Shown piece by piece: positions 45,424 to 53,968 of a stretch of 64,000 bases of DNA. Position 1 is the stretch's first letter, and the number at the start of each line of letters is the position of its first letter. The notes under the pieces were generated by a model, which was not told the DNA's origin, did not search any database, and was given only the letters and a program-made list of their open reading frames with translations. A program made the position numbers and the translations under genes. Source of the stretch: Actinoallomurus bryophytorum (lineage in GTDB: Bacteria > Actinomycetota > Actinomycetes > Streptosporangiales > Streptosporangiaceae); assembly GCF_006716425.1 (NCBI RefSeq), contig NZ_VFOZ01000001.1:5642001-5706000 (forward strand), written 5' to 3'.

Positions 45424-45615
45424 GTCCTGTCTCAAGGTCATGCTGTTGCCGTGTGGCGCCGTCTGTGCCGTGTGGCGCCGCCTGGGCGCTGCCTGGGGCG
45501 GCGTTATCCACAGAACGTCGCTCTACTTCCGCCCGTCGTTGTTCTGGCTGGACAATGAGAGTGGGATGGCACCCCCGGGCGGGTGGGCTCCAGGTGGGTG
45601 GGCTCCAGGACGGCT
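45420..45615. repeat. Dispersed element copy A with DnaA-box sequence
   Basis: Starts CTAGGTCCTGTCTCAAGGTCATGC, split here as CTAGGTCCTGTCTC then AAGGTCATGC, and runs through TGTTGCCGTGTGGCG, a TTATCCACA (45504-45512, the consensus DnaA box), TGGCTGGACAATGAGAG and a GGGTGGGCTCCAGG duplication. The same sequence occurs inverted at 53770-53968. The left end overlaps the sulfurtransferase stop codon. The gene-free stretch 45424-45728 is mostly this element; the right boundary is unclear. Confidence 0.6.
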
Positions 45616-45728: not shown

Positions 45729-46106
45729 TCAGATGCCCGCGGCGGGGATGCGGCGGCGGGCGGCGAAGCCGAGGTCGGTCCGGTGGTACCACCCGAGTTC
45801 GGTCTCGCCCTCCAGCAGGCAGAGGCGGACCGAGGTGCCCTTGTAGACCGCGGGGAAGTCCACCAGCACCGGAGAGATGCTCTTGACCTCGATGCCCTGG
45901 ATCGTGAACCATCCCAGCGCCTCGTCGATGCGGGCCTCGTAACCCTTCTGCTCCGGCTTGCCGCCCAGGTGCGACGCGAGGCCCGACCGCAGCGCGAAGG
46001 TCACCTCGGCCAGGTTGGCGCGGGCGGCCACGATGGCGTCGATCTGCGCTCGCGCCTCGGGAACCAGCGCGCGTGCCTCACTGAGGGTGAAGGTCCGGTC
46101 GGTCAC
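45729..46106 (-). CDS. DUF2203 family protein
   Basis: 125 residues from GTG 46106. The start FTLSEARALVPEARAQIDAIVAARANLAEV and the core VKSISPVLVDFPAVYKGTSVRLCLLEGETELGWYHRTDLGFAARR are typical of DUF2203, whose function is unknown; the conserved LCWL/LGWYH portion has Cys and His residues. It overlaps the end of the CHAT gene by 29 bp. Starting at the ATG 46154 would deepen the overlap with non-family residues, so GTG is preferred. Confidence 0.78.
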   Translation of the reverse strand: MTDRTFTLSEARALVPEARAQIDAIVAARANLAEVTFALRSGLASHLGGKPEQKGYEARIDEALGWFTIQGIEVKSISPVLVDFPAVYKGTSVRLCLLEGETELGWYHRTDLGFAARRRIPAAGI

Positions 46107-48645
46107 GCTCGTACGGTACCGGGCGGTCCGGCTCCCACCGGCGGCGCCGCTCATAACCGGCGCCGAAGCAGAGGAAGCCGAGAGTCGCCGGGTCGCGGGG
46201 CGTGGCGGCGAGGGCCTCGGCCGGAGACATGCCGGTGGCCAGGCGTTCGTGGAAGCCGGTCATCAGGCCCGGGGTGGCGGTGTCGCCGACCGGCGTCACG
46301 GCCGCGACGACCGTCGCCGTGCCGAAGGACAGCAGGCTGGCGGCCATCCCCATGACGGCCTCTCCCGCGCGCACGTCCGCGCGGCCCGCGTCGCAGGCGG
46401 ACAGGACCAGCAGCCGTGGTGGCCGTGTCAGGCGTTCGAGGTCGTAGGTGATCAGCGGACCGTCCGCGAGGCGGAGGCTGGAGAACAGGGCGTTCCCGGA
46501 GCGGAACCTCCCGTGTACGGCGAGATGGGCGGTCGCGGCGCCGTCCAGGGCGGCGCGGACCGCGTCCGAGGTCGCCGCCGCGCCCGTGAGGAGCACGGCC
46601 GACGGGTGGCGCGACCGGACCGCCGTCACCTCGCCGGCGGCGTGAGCGAGGTCCGGGCCGGCGACCAGCGTCACGTGCCCGGGAGCGTCCGGCACACGGA
46701 GTGTACGGAGCCAGCTCGCCACGGACGGCACCACGGTCAGCGGACGTCCGGCCAGCGAGGGCAGCGCGGCCCACGGCAGGCCGTGCAGCGCACCGGTGGG
46801 CGCCAGCACCACCGGCCGGTCCCCGAGGCGCAGCGGCCCGCACAGCCGGGCGTCTAGCCGCCCCGCCGCGCACGCCAGCCCCTGCGCGGCCGCCGGGGTC
46901 GCCGGGGTCGCCGCATGGGCGAGCCGGGACACGGCGAACCGCAGGAGCCGTACGTCGTGCTCGGCGCGCGCGTACGGGCCCAGGGACACGCGGCGGCAGC
47001 GTCCGCCGGCCACGGTCACCGCGAGCAGGTCGTCGCCGTCGCGGATCAGCTCGACGAACATGCGGTCGGCGAGCGCCTCGAAGAGGGCGGGCACCAGCCA
47101 GGCCCACCCGCGTACGGTGTCCCGGCTCGACGTGAGGACGCGTGTACGGGTGCGGACCGCCTGCTCCAGGCGCGTCTGGGCGGCGAGCAGCTCGGGCCGC
47201 ACGGAAACCTCGGCACTGACGCGGCGCAGCTCGGCGAGCAGCCCCGCCAGCCGCCGGTCCCGCGGCGGCCGGATCGCGGGCGGGCGGCCGGCGATGGCCC
47301 GCGCGCGTTCGGCGGCGACGAGGAGGGCTCGCGGACCTCGCGCGAGGCGTACGCCGAGGCCGGCCAGCTCGGCGGACCAGCCGGCCGCCCGGCCGCGCAG
47401 CTCCGCGGCGCCGAGCGCGGCGGCGTGCTCGTCCACGACGCGCAGCCCCGCGCGCACCGCGGCGGCGGCGCCCTGACGGTCACCGGCGGCCAGCCGCAGC
47501 AGCGCCTTGGCGTGCCAGGCCGCGACACGGGCGCCGAGGGGTCCGCCGCCGACGCGGCCGAGCAGCCGGGCCGCGTGCTCCCGTCGTCCCTGGTCGAGGG
47601 CGATCAGACCGGCGAGCGTGCGTGTGTCGGCCGCGGCGGAGACCCAGCCGGCGCCGGCCAGGAGTCCGGCGGCCCTCTCGGCCTCCGCGGCGAGCGACGG
47701 GGAGCGCTCGCCGTCCGTCCAGCGCGCCCGCAGCCCGACCTGCTCGGCGAGCAGCGCGAACCCGGCACGCTCCGCGCCGAAGGCGTCGCGCGCCCGCCGC
47801 GCGGTGGCCGCGGCGGCACGCGGATCGCCGTCGGCAAGCTCGGCGTGGGCGAGCAGCAGCAGGGCGTCGGCGGTGTCGCACCGGTAGCCGGCACCGTCGA
47901 GGTGTTCGAGTGTCCGCGTCAGGAGAGGACGCGCCTCCTCGGGCAGCTGTGCGGCGACGAGCGCCTCGGCGCGGTCGAGCTGGAGCTGGCAGAGGCGTTC
48001 GCCGACCCCGGCCAGCTCGGGTTCGACGGCGTCGTAGATCGCCAACGCCGCGGGCAGGTCGCCGCGGCGCACCGCGATCACGGCCAGGTTGTGCCGGACC
48101 ATCGCGGCCTGGTGACGCAGGCCCGCCCGCTCGGCGACGGACAGCGCGCGGCGCAGGTCGGACTCGCCCCGTCCGAGCTTGCCCGCGTACGCCCTGGCCA
48201 GCCCCGTGTTGACCCGCAGGCCGATGGAGACCGCCGGGTCCTCGCAGGTACGGGCGATCCGCGCCACCTCGCCGATGCGGCCGCTGCGGGCCAGAGCGCA
48301 GGCGCGGTTCGCCAGCAGCCGGTCGGCGTCGGCCCCGGTGAGCACCGGCGCCGCCTCGTCGGCCGTCGCCAGCGCCGCCTCGAGGTCGCCACGCGCGACG
48401 AGCAGCCCGACGAGGTTCATCTTGACCTGTGCGGTCGCGTAGGTGAGGTGTTCGGCCTCGGCGATGCGCAGCGCCTCGTCCAGGTGCTCCAGGCCCTCCC
48501 CGAGCCGGCCGAGCTCCTTGCAGGCCAGACCCAGCGCGCGACGCGCCGTCACCCGTAGCCCGGGATCGGCGGCCGTCACCTGCGCGAGGGCCGAGGAGTA
48601 GGCCCGGCGCGGGTCCGCGGCGGCCGCCGTGATCAGGTCACACAC
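46078..48645 (-). CDS. TPR-CHAT domain protein (caspase-like protease)
   Basis: 855 residues. The first 430 are Ala/Leu-rich TPR-like helical repeats (for example ARRALGLACKELGRLGEGLEHLDEALRIAEAE and LRHQAAMVRHNLAVIAVRRGDLPAALAIYD). The C-terminal 300 form a CHAT domain: VLAPTGALHGLPWAAL, catalytic histidine in AHLAVHGRFRSGNALFSSL and catalytic cysteine in LLVLSACDAGRADVRAGEAVMGM, ending with FHERLATGMSPAEALAAT. CHAT domains are caspase-fold peptidases found in cell-death and defence systems. No signal peptide. The GTG start overlaps the preceding gene by 8 bp. It belongs to the operon with the S8 protease and ECF sigma genes. Confidence 0.88.
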   Translation of the reverse strand: MCDLITAAAADPRRAYSSALAQVTAADPGLRVTARRALGLACKELGRLGEGLEHLDEALRIAEAEHLTYATAQVKMNLVGLLVARGDLEAALATADEAAPVLTGADADRLLANRACALARSGRIGEVARIARTCEDPAVSIGLRVNTGLARAYAGKLGRGESDLRRALSVAERAGLRHQAAMVRHNLAVIAVRRGDLPAALAIYDAVEPELAGVGERLCQLQLDRAEALVAAQLPEEARPLLTRTLEHLDGAGYRCDTADALLLLAHAELADGDPRAAAATARRARDAFGAERAGFALLAEQVGLRARWTDGERSPSLAAEAERAAGLLAGAGWVSAAADTRTLAGLIALDQGRREHAARLLGRVGGGPLGARVAAWHAKALLRLAAGDRQGAAAAVRAGLRVVDEHAAALGAAELRGRAAGWSAELAGLGVRLARGPRALLVAAERARAIAGRPPAIRPPRDRRLAGLLAELRRVSAEVSVRPELLAAQTRLEQAVRTRTRVLTSSRDTVRGWAWLVPALFEALADRMFVELIRDGDDLLAVTVAGGRCRRVSLGPYARAEHDVRLLRFAVSRLAHAATPATPAAAQGLACAAGRLDARLCGPLRLGDRPVVLAPTGALHGLPWAALPSLAGRPLTVVPSVASWLRTLRVPDAPGHVTLVAGPDLAHAAGEVTAVRSRHPSAVLLTGAAATSDAVRAALDGAATAHLAVHGRFRSGNALFSSLRLADGPLITYDLERLTRPPRLLVLSACDAGRADVRAGEAVMGMAASLLSFGTATVVAAVTPVGDTATPGLMTGFHERLATGMSPAEALAATPRDPATLGFLCFGAGYERRRRWEPDRPVPYERDRPDLHPQ

Positions 48646-49066
48646 GGATCCAGCTCGTGACGACCGAGGTCGCGTCGGCGAGCCGGAACAGCAGGCTGAC
48701 CGCGCCCGCGGGCACGCCGGAGAGCGCGAACGACCCGGCCTCGTCGGTACGCGTCCCGCGCTCCCCGCCCGCCGAGCGCAGGATCACCTCCGCGAGGGAG
48801 GGAGGCGCGAGCTGCCCCACGATCTCCCGCCCGCAGACCTCGACCTCGACGCTGACGCGGGGACCGGCGAACGTGAGCGACCGTGAGCCGTCGCCGCGTA
48901 CGCCGGGCGGTGTCGCGATGGTCTCCGTGGTGAGCGTCGCGAGCGTCGCGGCCGGCTCGAACCACGCGAACGCGGCGTACCCGAGCGCCCGTACGTGGTC
49001 GGGAACGGGAGGAAAGATCCCGCGCAGCGCCTCGACCAGCTCCTCCTCGCTGGCTCCGCCGTTCAC
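48638..49066 (-). CDS. Small protein of the S8-sigma-CHAT operon, function unknown
   Basis: 142 residues from GTG 49066, which overlaps the sigma factor stop (GTGA). The N-terminus is helical (ASEEELVEALRGIFPPVPDHVRALGYAAFAWF). The C-terminal half is beta-rich, with FAGPRVSVEVEVCGREIVGQLAP then RTDEAGSFALSGVPAGAVSLLFRL, like a carboxypeptidase-regulatory/transthyretin-type fold. This gene type recurs between ECF sigma and CHAT genes in actinobacteria. With no signal peptide it should be cytoplasmic; an adaptor or anti-sigma-like role is conjecture. Confidence 0.75.
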   Translation of the reverse strand: MNGGASEEELVEALRGIFPPVPDHVRALGYAAFAWFEPAATLATLTTETIATPPGVRGDGSRSLTFAGPRVSVEVEVCGREIVGQLAPPSLAEVILRSAGGERGTRTDEAGSFALSGVPAGAVSLLFRLADATSVVTSWIRV

Positions 49067-49629
49067 GTGACACCGTCCAGCTGCCTGCGCAGGTGGGTCA
49101 GGCACCGGGCACGCGTCGGGCCGACGCTGCCGACCGGGATCTCCAGCGCCGCCGAGATCTCCGAGTAGCTGAAAGGCGGTGAGGCCACGAACAGCTCCAG
49201 CAACCGGCGGCAGCGCGGCGGGATCGTCTCCAGCGCCGCTCCGACCGAGGCCGCGAGGTCGCGGCCGAACACCACATGGTGCGGCCCGGTCACCGAGGGT
49301 CCGTAGCCCTGCAGGGGGCGTTCGCGGCCGAGTCGCCGGAGCGTGGCCAGGCTCTCCCGCCGTGCCGTGACGGCCAGCCACGTGCCGGCACGTGCGGGGT
49401 CGCGCAGCAGGGTGAGCCGCTCGACCAGCCGCAGCCAGGTCGTCTGCATCACGTCGTCGGCGTCCGCGCCGCTCAGCCCGTACGAGTGCGCGATGGCGCA
49501 CAGCAGTCGCGAGTAGCGGTCGACGAGGCCACGCCAGGCGTCGATGTCGCCCCGGCCCGCCCGCCGTACGAGGTCGCCGGTGCTTTCGTCCTCCACAGGC
49601 GGGGATATTAGCGCAGAGTAAGCGTTCAA
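49063..49629 (-). CDS. ECF-type RNA polymerase sigma factor
   Basis: 188 residues. Region 2 is DLVRRAGRGDIDAWRGLVDRYSRLLCAIAHSYGLSGADADDVMQTTWLRLVERLTLLRDPARAGTWLAVTARRESLATLRR, condensed here by its ends: DLVRRAGRGDIDAW, ADADDVMQTTWLRL and WLAVTARRESLATLRR. Region 4 contains LETIPPRCRRLLELFVASPPFSYSEISAALEIPVGSVGPTRARCL condensed as SYSEISAALEIPVGSVGPTR. The TTG start overlaps the S8 protease stop (TTGA); a GTG at 49596 is the alternative. No membrane anti-sigma gene is adjacent, so control may come from the operon's proteases. Confidence 0.87.
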   Translation of the reverse strand: MNAYSALISPPVEDESTGDLVRRAGRGDIDAWRGLVDRYSRLLCAIAHSYGLSGADADDVMQTTWLRLVERLTLLRDPARAGTWLAVTARRESLATLRRLGRERPLQGYGPSVTGPHHVVFGRDLAASVGAALETIPPRCRRLLELFVASPPFSYSEISAALEIPVGSVGPTRARCLTHLRRQLDGVT

Positions 49630-50801
49630 CTACCAGAAGTCATGAGGATCACTCCCAGATCCGGAAGTGTGCGCCGGTGCGCCGGATCAAGAATCCGCTC
49701 CGCGGCCGTGGTCGCGGGCAGGTCCTCGGCCGCGGCCAGGCCGGCGATCGCGCCCGCCACCGCCGGCGCCGCGAACGACGTGCCGCTCCACGACGCGTAG
49801 CCCGCGAAGTCGTCCGGGTCGATCCCGCGCACCCGCGGCAGCGGGCCGTCGAAGCTGACGAAACAGCTCGTGACGTCCACGCCCGGCGCGCACGCGTCCA
49901 CCCACCAGCCGTAGTCGGAGAACCAGGCGCGTTCGAGTCCGTCCAGCGCCGCGACGGCGATCACGTGCTTCAGCGCGGCCGGCCAGAACGGCCGGTCGCT
50001 CGCGTGGTTGCCGGCACACGCCACGATGACCGTACGGCGGCCGAGCGCGGCGACGGCGCGAGCGACGACGGGGGAGGGGCGGTCGTCGTAGGTGTGGCAC
50101 CCGAGGGACAGGTTGACCACGTCGGCCCGGCCGGCCAGCCGCGCCAGGGCGCGCAGCACCCCGAGCTCGTCCCCCACGCCGTCGCCGCCGATCACCCGTA
50201 TGGCGCGGACGCGGACACCGGGCGCGTGGCGGAGCAGCACCCCGGCGATGAACGTGCCGTGTCCCGCCTGGGCGTCGAGCGCGTAGTCCAGGTCGGCGTC
50301 GAGGACCTCGCTCACCTCGTCGCGCTGTGCGGCGTACCAGTCCGCGGACTCGTACCAGGGGTGCGGCGACAGGCCGGTGTCGAGCACGGCGACGGTGACC
50401 GGCCGCCGTACGCGCGCCGTCCTCGGGGGCGCGAGCGGCGCGGTCGGAGCCGGCCTCCCCGCGGGGCCCGTCCACCACATCGGCTGGCCGTGGACGAGGT
50501 GGTTGGGCGCGACCGCGAGCCGCCGGTGCGGAGCGTCCTCGTTGAGGTGTGCGGACAGCTCGCAGACGTCCACTCTCGCCGGGGCGCGCAGTCGCATCCG
50601 CGCGACGCCCGGTCCGTCCTCCCGCGAGTCGAGCCAGCGGCGCGCGCGGTCCTCCACCGCGGGCACGTCCTGGTCGGCGACCAGGATCTGGTCCCGGCGC
50701 ACGAGAGTGGGGCACCCGCGTACGTGCTCGGCCACCACCGCGTCGCGATGGCGCGCGAGCAGCCGGTCGAGCCGGGCCTGCTGAACGGACTCGTCGAACA
50801 C
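49626..50801 (-). CDS. S8 (subtilisin-family) serine peptidase without signal peptide
   Basis: 391 residues. The catalytic triad is clear: D in VAVLDTGLSPHPW, H in AGHGTFIAGVLL and S in WSGTSFAAPAVAGAIAG; the oxyanion asparagine lies in VIVACAGNHASD. The N-terminal 130 residues precede the peptidase domain and include RRLAVAPNHLVHGQPMWW, but no signal peptide or membrane helix is present, so the enzyme should be cytoplasmic. GTG 50801 is preceded by GGGAGGG. It is the first gene of the operon with ECF sigma, a small protein and CHAT. Confidence 0.88.
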   Translation of the reverse strand: MFDESVQQARLDRLLARHRDAVVAEHVRGCPTLVRRDQILVADQDVPAVEDRARRWLDSREDGPGVARMRLRAPARVDVCELSAHLNEDAPHRRLAVAPNHLVHGQPMWWTGPAGRPAPTAPLAPPRTARVRRPVTVAVLDTGLSPHPWYESADWYAAQRDEVSEVLDADLDYALDAQAGHGTFIAGVLLRHAPGVRVRAIRVIGGDGVGDELGVLRALARLAGRADVVNLSLGCHTYDDRPSPVVARAVAALGRRTVIVACAGNHASDRPFWPAALKHVIAVAALDGLERAWFSDYGWWVDACAPGVDVTSCFVSFDGPLPRVRGIDPDDFAGYASWSGTSFAAPAVAGAIAGLAAAEDLPATTAAERILDPAHRRTLPDLGVILMTSGS

Positions 50802-53629: not shown

Positions 53630-53968
53630 CCTCATTCAAAGTCTTCGGTCTGGGCCCCGCTCGGTCTGGGCCCCGCTCGGTCTGGGCCCCGCTCGGTCTG
53701 GGCCCCGCTCGGTCTGGGCCCCGCTCGGTCTGGAGCCCGTCCGTCTGGAGCCCGTCCGTCTGGGCCCGCTCGGTCTGGAGCCCGTCCGTCTGGAGCCCAC
53801 CCACCTGGAGCCCACCCGCCCGGGGGTGCCATCCCACTCTCATTGTCCAGCCAGAACAGCGGCAGGCGGAAGTAGAGCGGGGTTCTGTGGATAACCGCCG
53901 CCCAGGCGCCGCCCGGGCGCCGCCCGGGCGCCGCCACACGGCAACAGCATGACTTCGGATGGGCCTAG
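53624..53968. repeat. Dispersed element copy B with internal minisatellite and DnaA-box sequence
   Basis: Bounded by CTAG on both sides (53624-53627 and 53965-53968) with inverted ends: AGGGCCTCATTCAAAGTC inward from the left, AGGCCCATCCGAAGTCATG inward from the right. The left half is a 16-bp-type array (CGGTCTGGGCCCCGCT, about six copies, then CGGTCTGGAGCC variants). The right half matches copy A in inverse, including TGTGGATAA (53886-53894), the complement of the DnaA box. Confidence 0.7.

Follow-up and report, generated by a model that had tools for sequence, protein, structure and literature searches.

A conserved gene set of subtilisin, ECF sigma factor, small protein and TPR-CHAT protease in Actinoallomurus bryophytorum: a possible protease-controlled sigma switch

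Introduction

A group of neighbouring genes in Actinoallomurus bryophytorum raises the question of how an ECF sigma factor might be controlled when it is encoded together with two proteases and a small protein. Passages of a 2022 review (PMC8999054), which cites Casas-Pastor 2021 and Huang 2015 as sources of the group, describe for the ECF54 sigma factors (an example being SFT86700.1) a conserved context of subtilase, CHAT and carboxypeptidase proteins, propose a proteolytic control that does without an anti-sigma factor, and place proteolytic control of ECF sigma factors mainly in actinobacteria. The cassette is thus already known as a gene neighbourhood. No experiment on it was found in the open-licence literature searched, and among the three open-licence papers mentioning 'ECF54' this review alone concerns sigma factors by its title.

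Loci and alignments

Three sets of loci were compared. The 40 stretches from relatives were picked from the CHAT places of a search of 60 genomes (the own genome and 59 relatives). The 40 stretches from a search of 396 phylum-wide genomes with the small protein represent 43 of the 56 listed small-protein places. The third set consists of the loci of the best 80 of at least 529 CHAT relatives in named genomes. The sets overlap: L123, L124 and L125 duplicate L033, L034 and L035, and others may do so too. Some loci stop at contig ends, and L205-L207 were not used. The locus genes were called by a codon-bias script, and the score cut-offs for the six-frame HMM counts were set by hand.

Each alignment contained the window sequence as well. 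To it were added 32 of 40 CHAT genes in A1, all 35 small proteins in A2, 33 of 34 sigma genes in A3, 26 of 28 S8 genes in A4, 11 of 40 CHAT genes in A5 and 19 of 40 in A8, all 72 named small proteins in A6, and 59 of 75 named CHAT genes in A7.

The genes and their arrangement

The window, the whole stretch of 64,000 nucleotides that was analysed, comes from a genome of 9.47 Mb in three contigs. Pfam matches and coordinates bear out the order given by the preliminary description, with a subtilisin, an ECF sigma factor, a small protein and a TPR-CHAT protein following one another on the minus strand. The S8 (subtilisin-like) serine peptidase (49626..50801, minus strand, 391 aa; PF00082, Peptidase_S8, 2e-26) has its catalytic domain at residues 135-360, and its N-terminal ~130 residues look like a putative pro-domain. 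The sigma factor (49063..49596, minus strand; PF04542, Sigma70_r2, 3.7e-13; TIGR02937, 4.6e-17) is 177 residues long when read from the GTG at 49596 and 188 residues long when read from the TTG at 49629. It is followed by the small partner protein (48638..49066, minus strand, 142 aa), whose match to PF13620 (5.5e-5) lies below the curated cut-off, and by the TPR-CHAT cysteine protease (46078..48645, minus strand, 855 aa; PF12770, 2.2e-31; TPR_12, 5e-11), in which helical repeats extend to about residue 525 and a separase/caspase-like region occupies about residues 529-830. A DUF2203 gene (45729..46154, or from a start at 46106, minus strand; PF09969, 7.1e-26) is a neighbour outside the core set. 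All five window genes were called by the codon-bias script, which was trained partly on the S8, sigma, CHAT and DUF2203 genes, the small protein being kept out of the training.

The claim that all these genes overlap holds in part. The GTGA overlap of the sigma and small-protein genes and the 8-bp overlap of the small-protein and CHAT genes are both read directly in the sequence. The overlap between the CHAT and DUF2203 genes depends on the start chosen, being 29 bp with the DUF2203 GTG at 46106 and 77 bp with the ATG at 46154. The TTGA overlap between the S8 and sigma genes is doubtful. Comparison of the sequences indicates that the sigma gene probably starts at the GTG at 49596, past the end of the S8 gene, so that 29 bases would separate the two. 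The called sigma start in the relatives L033, L034 and L035 corresponds to this GTG, and a TAATAT-like box stands 7-8 bases ahead of it in the window and in all three; the relatives' starts come from the codon-bias script, and the box is independent of the script. In the window this -10-like box (TAATAT, 49605..49610, minus strand) is found 8 bases before the GTG, and might give the sigma gene its own leaderless promoter. As a general feature of sigma genes the box was rejected: one of this form lies ahead of 24/137 sigma genes and of 208/1660 other genes, and the pattern holds only in the window and the three relatives. Among 77 S8-then-sigma pairs, seven overlap and the median gap is 54.

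The cassette is enclosed by an inverted pair of a dispersed repeat of ~180 bp (45430-45612, plus strand; 53790-53953, minus strand). The repeat has 67 matches in its own genome, spread over all three contigs (40 of 105 candidates were scored); 40 of the 67, the window copy included, are long matches of 80-100% identity, and in some copies the repeat continues into short tandem units. The congeners gave short partial matches only, in 3/7, so that the repeat is apparently a lineage-specific expansion. Its RNA fold z-score is -0.71, and a search of the window against Rfam found nothing. A tandem array of 15-16 bp units (53645-53817; 9.8 copies of 16 bp) adjoins the second copy of the repeat.

Conservation of the set

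Judged from their co-occurrence, the four genes are a real and widely conserved set, beyond chance. All four stand together in 25/40 loci of the relatives, in 27/40 loci found with the small protein, and in 66/80 loci of the named genomes (the best 80 of at least 529). The genes belong together as had been supposed, and the set extends to distant actinobacterial genomes, not to close relatives alone. The search with CHAT matched 45 of the 60 genomes: the own genome, 7/7 of the same genus, 27/29 others of the same family, 4/4 of the same order and 6/19 others of the same class. This places CHAT in 34/36 other genomes of the family. Across the phylum it is patchy (49/396 genomes at E<=1e-30), and some genomes carry several copies. 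The closest named homologues among the matches listed are from Actinomadura sp. DC4 and Actinoallomurus species, and matches were also obtained in Acidimicrobiia and Egibacteraceae MAGs.

The incomplete loci are of several kinds. Apart from the 25 complete ones, the relatives' loci comprise nine with CHAT, sigma and small protein, three with CHAT and S8, two with CHAT, S8 and small protein, and one with CHAT alone. Four CHAT loci without a nearby small protein (L049, L051, L052 and L072) belong to genomes that encode one elsewhere (G018, G006, G058 and G015, respectively). The small-protein search matched 47 of the 396 genomes, and besides the 27 complete loci it gave seven with sigma and small protein, four with the small protein only and two with CHAT, sigma and small protein. 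Among 11 genomes examined because no CHAT gene adjoins the small protein, CHAT is encoded elsewhere in eight (G142, G174, G218, G364, G373, G292, G098 and G245) and absent from three (G438, G442 and G325). The remaining loci among the best 80 of at least 529 in named genomes have CHAT, sigma and small protein (6), CHAT only (4), CHAT and S8 (3), or CHAT and small protein (1). Counted by gene, S8 is present in 27/40 small-protein-query loci and in 30/40 and 69/80 CHAT-query loci (the 80 again being the best of at least 529), and CHAT in 29/40 small-protein-query loci and in 43/47 genomes carrying the small protein. Over the 396 genomes, with CHAT taken at E<=1e-30, both proteins occur in 43, the small protein only in four, CHAT only in six and neither in 343 (Fisher p 3e-46, uncorrected for kinship).

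The 160 loci differ in gene order, S8, sigma, small protein, CHAT being found in 50 and a small protein-sigma-S8 group divergent from CHAT in 26, besides others. A constant element is that the sigma gene directly precedes the small-protein gene, in the same direction, in 138/138 loci in which both were called; 94 of these 138 pairs overlap, and the median gap is -4. Adjacent co-directional pairs of this kind often consist of a sigma factor and its regulator. That the small protein is central is likewise supported. None of 596 ORFs contains two of the four families, so no gene fusion was seen among them. The membership of DUF2203, which the preliminary description left undecided, does not look real: it is near the set in 11/40, 0/40 and 5/80 loci (the 80 being the best of at least 529), counts that come from one profile round with the window protein and may miss distant members.

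Some loci differ in other ways. Tandem duplication of the set is seen at L104 and L106 (genomes G153 and G409), with 2-3 small-protein genes, two CHAT genes and one sigma gene within 19 kb. Three loci from Acidimicrobiaceae MAGs (L177, L182 and L183) have like-sized genes after CHAT, and no S8 gene was found at them; in L183 the genes after CHAT encode an AAA_3/MoxR-like ATPase together with a DUF58 protein, and in L182 a transglutaminase-like protein comes after the like-sized genes. At L094 a 501-aa protein (L094:10832-12337) is encoded divergently to CHAT, at the position often held by S8. It is a possible replacement protease, but its only match, to the NAL1 N-terminus (NAL1_N, 0.0014), lies below the cut-off.

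The two proteases

Both catalytic sites are kept, as had been expected. In the S8 protein D141, H181, S342 and N265 are invariant in 27/27 aligned sequences, and in a wider set of 135 rows, five of which do not span the sites, they are kept in 130/130 (D141), 129/130 (H181), 130/130 (N265) and 130/130 (S342) of the covering rows. The sole missing His belongs to an additional S8 copy in L173, and is the one exception to the retention of the catalytic residues of either protease in all covering rows. H711 and C751 of the CHAT protein are invariant in 33/33 and 60/60 homologues and in the 152/152 covering rows of 183, the other 31 rows not spanning the sites.

The window S8 protein has no hydrophobic N-terminus, in keeping with the earlier statement that it lacks a signal peptide; one is present in 4/114 S8 homologues. 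No 19-residue stretch with a hydropathy of 1.9 or more was found in any of the four window proteins, the peak in CHAT being 1.68, within the CHAT domain. Such a stretch occurs in 41/136 CHAT homologues. By their hydropathy the cassette proteins of the window look cytoplasmic.

The AlphaFold2 model of the CHAT protein (pLDDT 90.7) shows the TPR repeats as a superhelix and the protease region as separase-like. In a Foldseek search with this model the top hit by E-value is DdvA (8rw5; 2.2e-14), but with a TM-score of 0.25; separases, whose TM-scores reach 0.50, and Csx29 (0.31-0.35) come next. A profile of the CHAT domain run against the PDB also places DdvA first (2.4e-11), followed by Csx29 from 4.8e-7, and the His and Cys of DdvA are kept in the alignment with the CHAT domain. 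The full-length profile has unrelated TPR proteins on top and DdvA at 2e-10, and a single-sequence search of the PDB with the CHAT domain gave nothing at E<=1. In separase, according to passages of PMC9729208, D2151 reads the P1 Arg, and its counterpart in Csx29 is K670. Because the aligned residue is P792 here and K670 in Csx29, an Arg specificity of the CHAT protease derived from D2151 was rejected.

The small protein

The AlphaFold2 model of the small protein (mean pLDDT 91.2) has two N-terminal helices (residues 7-17 and 23-34) followed by a beta-sandwich resembling CarboxypepD_reg. PF13620 was matched by 17/36 homologues at E<=1 (best 7.8e-6), the only matches being of the CarboxypepD_reg type; no peptidase family was found among the 36 homologues scanned with Pfam. 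A fold search of solved structures in the PDB gave no match at E<=0.001, a PDB profile search gave two matches only (E 0.51 and 1.5), and neither of these two PDB searches found a Csx30 or anti-sigma fold. As modelled, the protein looks like a non-enzymatic protein of two helices and a beta-sandwich. It is probably the 'carboxypeptidase' that the literature assigns to the ECF54 context.

One arginine of this protein is almost invariant. All but one of the distinct homologues (143/144) have R57, and in 137/144 a G, S, A or T comes next. The block of residues 51-60, which contains R57, is the lowest in the model (pLDDT 71). The conserved pattern, set in this least confident loop, resembles a cleavage site, and the R57-G58 bond (codons at 48893..48898, minus strand) is a candidate scissile bond. 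A structural role for R57 is also possible since residue 48 is mostly acidic (72/73 in A6 and 28/36 in A2).

A possible mechanism of sigma control

By combining these observations with known systems, it is possible to describe how the cassette might work. We consider the chances about even that it is a soluble, CRISPR-free, protease-controlled sigma switch of the ECF54 type, the assignment to ECF54 being made via the gene neighbourhood. The small protein would bind and hold the sigma factor, acting like an anti-sigma factor although it has no classical anti-sigma domain. The CHAT protein would sense an internal signal through its TPR part, and the protease so activated would then cut the small protein, perhaps at the R57 loop, either by itself or in a cascade that includes the subtilisin. 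The cut would lead to release of the sigma factor and thus to a stress or developmental programme.

The small protein is likely to be the sigma partner and a protease substrate by analogy with Csx29, Csx30 and CASP-sigma. Passages of PMC10028731 describe Csx29 as cleaving Csx30, an inhibitor of CASP-sigma, and those of PMC11417357 describe CalpL as cleaving the anti-sigma factor CalpT, which holds CalpS. According to PMC9729208, in the passages concerned, Csx30-N remains bound to its sigma factor after cleavage, so that the Csx29 precedent needs an additional step. Partial distance correlations over 92 loci (six of 98 with identical small proteins having been dropped) are 0.495 for sigma-small protein, 0.475 for sigma-CHAT, 0.465 for CHAT-S8, 0.269 for small protein-S8, 0.245 for CHAT-small protein and -0.105 for sigma-S8. 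They would fit a chain S8-CHAT-sigma-small protein, a weak clue because a species history is common to all four genes. Against the proposed switch stand the small-protein loci that have the sigma and small-protein genes only (7/40) or the small protein alone (4/40), the low TM-score of the DdvA match, and the failure to find any fusion among the 596 ORFs, a common sigma promoter or a credible PDB match for the small protein.

A common ECF promoter, or autoregulation through it, was rejected. The motif GGAAC-N15-18-CGT is not enriched upstream of the cassette genes (4/274 vs 17/799 controls), and the enriched k-mers looked like shared sequence of close relatives. When the regions before nine S8 starts were aligned (the window and eight others, L123-L125 being duplicates of L033-L035), no clear common promoter appeared.

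It is doubtful that the small protein represents a new type of soluble anti-sigma factor cut at its loop Arg by a relay of subtilisin and CHAT, the whole being a widespread chromosomal counterpart, perhaps the kind of ancestor, of the Craspase sigma-release module. Our estimate for this reading was lowered a little because Csx29 is reported to cut elsewhere than after Arg; its cuts are placed at residues 427-429 in a passage of PMC10028731 and, alternatively, after L407 in one of PMC9729208.

Other explanations

The proteases might also act on the sigma factor itself, degrading it to keep it off with no anti-sigma factor involved and with the small protein as adaptor or co-substrate. Section 3.3 of PMC8999054, as far as that section goes, proposes such degradation, and the sigma-CHAT correlation, which persists with the others held fixed, agrees with it. 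The third conserved protein, however, weakly matches CarboxypepD_reg only, although the review counts carboxypeptidases as peptidases, and degradation would leave the constant pairing of sigma and small protein unexplained; we regard this explanation as unlikely. The suggestion of the preliminary description that the proteases regulate the sigma factor is plausible and has been proposed in print, but its extension to induction in a phage response is unsupported. Programmed lysis or a developmental switch in aerial growth or sporulation, with S8 and CHAT as executioners expressed or activated through the sigma factor, would suit the two intact protease sites. It would also suit the many matches that fall in filamentous actinobacteria, a habit that we presume from general knowledge of the organisms named by the search. 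The absence of ECF-type promoter enrichment upstream of the cassette genes and the extension of the matches to Acidimicrobiia and Egibacteraceae MAGs speak against it, and make it quite improbable.

An anti-phage or abortive infection system, in which the sigma factor switches on the response and the proteases kill or protect when a phage infects, seems about as improbable. Its attraction lies in the CHAT proteases that act in Craspase and with bacterial gasdermin, as passages of PMC9729208 recount, and in the patchy distribution of CHAT in the phylum, with multiple copies in some genomes. In the family, however, CHAT is nearly universal and often lies at a syntenic site, and the same rhodanese gene adjoins the set in 16/40, 1/40 and 34/80 loci (the 80 being the best of at least 529). 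The window neighbours are of a housekeeping type or uncharacterised, not defence-like: by Pfam, the flanking genes encode an apolipoprotein N-acyltransferase, a rhodanese, a phosphodiesterase-like protein, a DUF5998 protein, a DUF3145 protein and a carboxyl transferase. The PADLOC matches at E<=0.01 are weak or generic only (generic subtilase, 7.7e-9; BovA, 9.6e-5; IetS, MzaA and PbeC, 0.0022 to 0.0087). Viral contigs yielded no CHAT relative, phages yielded no match to the small protein, and CHAT matched two plasmid records, one of them of 11.85 Mb. These searches give little sign of mobility of the cassette, and the phage response proposed earlier finds no support in them.

Relation to known systems

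The protease-controlled sigma switch proposed here shares with ECF54 an ECF sigma factor beside subtilase and CHAT proteins, together with the proposal of proteolytic control. The carboxypeptidase-domain protein of that context probably corresponds to the small protein, whose matches are of the CarboxypepD_reg type and, in the window, below the Pfam cut-off; a difference is that this protein looks like a sigma partner with no enzymatic role. Like Craspase (type III-E Csx29, Csx30 and CASP-sigma), the set contains a TPR-CHAT protein with a His-Cys dyad and a separase-like fold, and genes for an ECF sigma factor and one more protein accompany it. In contrast to Craspase, it has an added subtilisin and is near-universal in its family, its small protein has no likeness to Csx30 detectable in the PDB searches, and the six flanking window genes scanned with Pfam include no Cas7-11 or other Cas-like gene.

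For Myxococcus xanthus, passages of PMC4374960 describe DdvA as the anti-sigma factor acting on the ECF sigma factor DdvS, so that there too an ECF sigma factor is governed by a CHAT-containing protein. DdvA is transmembrane, whereas the window CHAT protein shows no membrane helix by hydropathy, and the only Pfam domains of the latter above the cut-off are TPR and CHAT, the proposed sigma partner being a separate small protein. The CalpL-CalpT-CalpS system of type III CRISPR has in common with the proposed switch a sensor protease that cuts an anti-sigma factor and frees an ECF sigma factor, but its protease is SAVED-Lon, triggered by cA4 and linked to CRISPR. The EACC2-caspase neighbourhoods with an ECF sigma factor and DUF1822, as passages of PMC8195603 present them, likewise combine a caspase-like protein with an ECF sigma factor; they have another constant domain and other partners, and no subtilisin is seen in those passages.

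What is new here is the reading of the probable 'carboxypeptidase' as a constant sigma partner, along with the connection made to DdvA and Csx29 and the candidate site in the loop. This reading challenges the published view of ECF54 as a group without an anti-sigma factor, and the cassette offers tractable actinomycetes for the study of CHAT control of an ECF sigma factor without CRISPR. If the proposal is true, Craspase, DdvA and ECF54 would be united as sigma switches governed by CHAT proteins.
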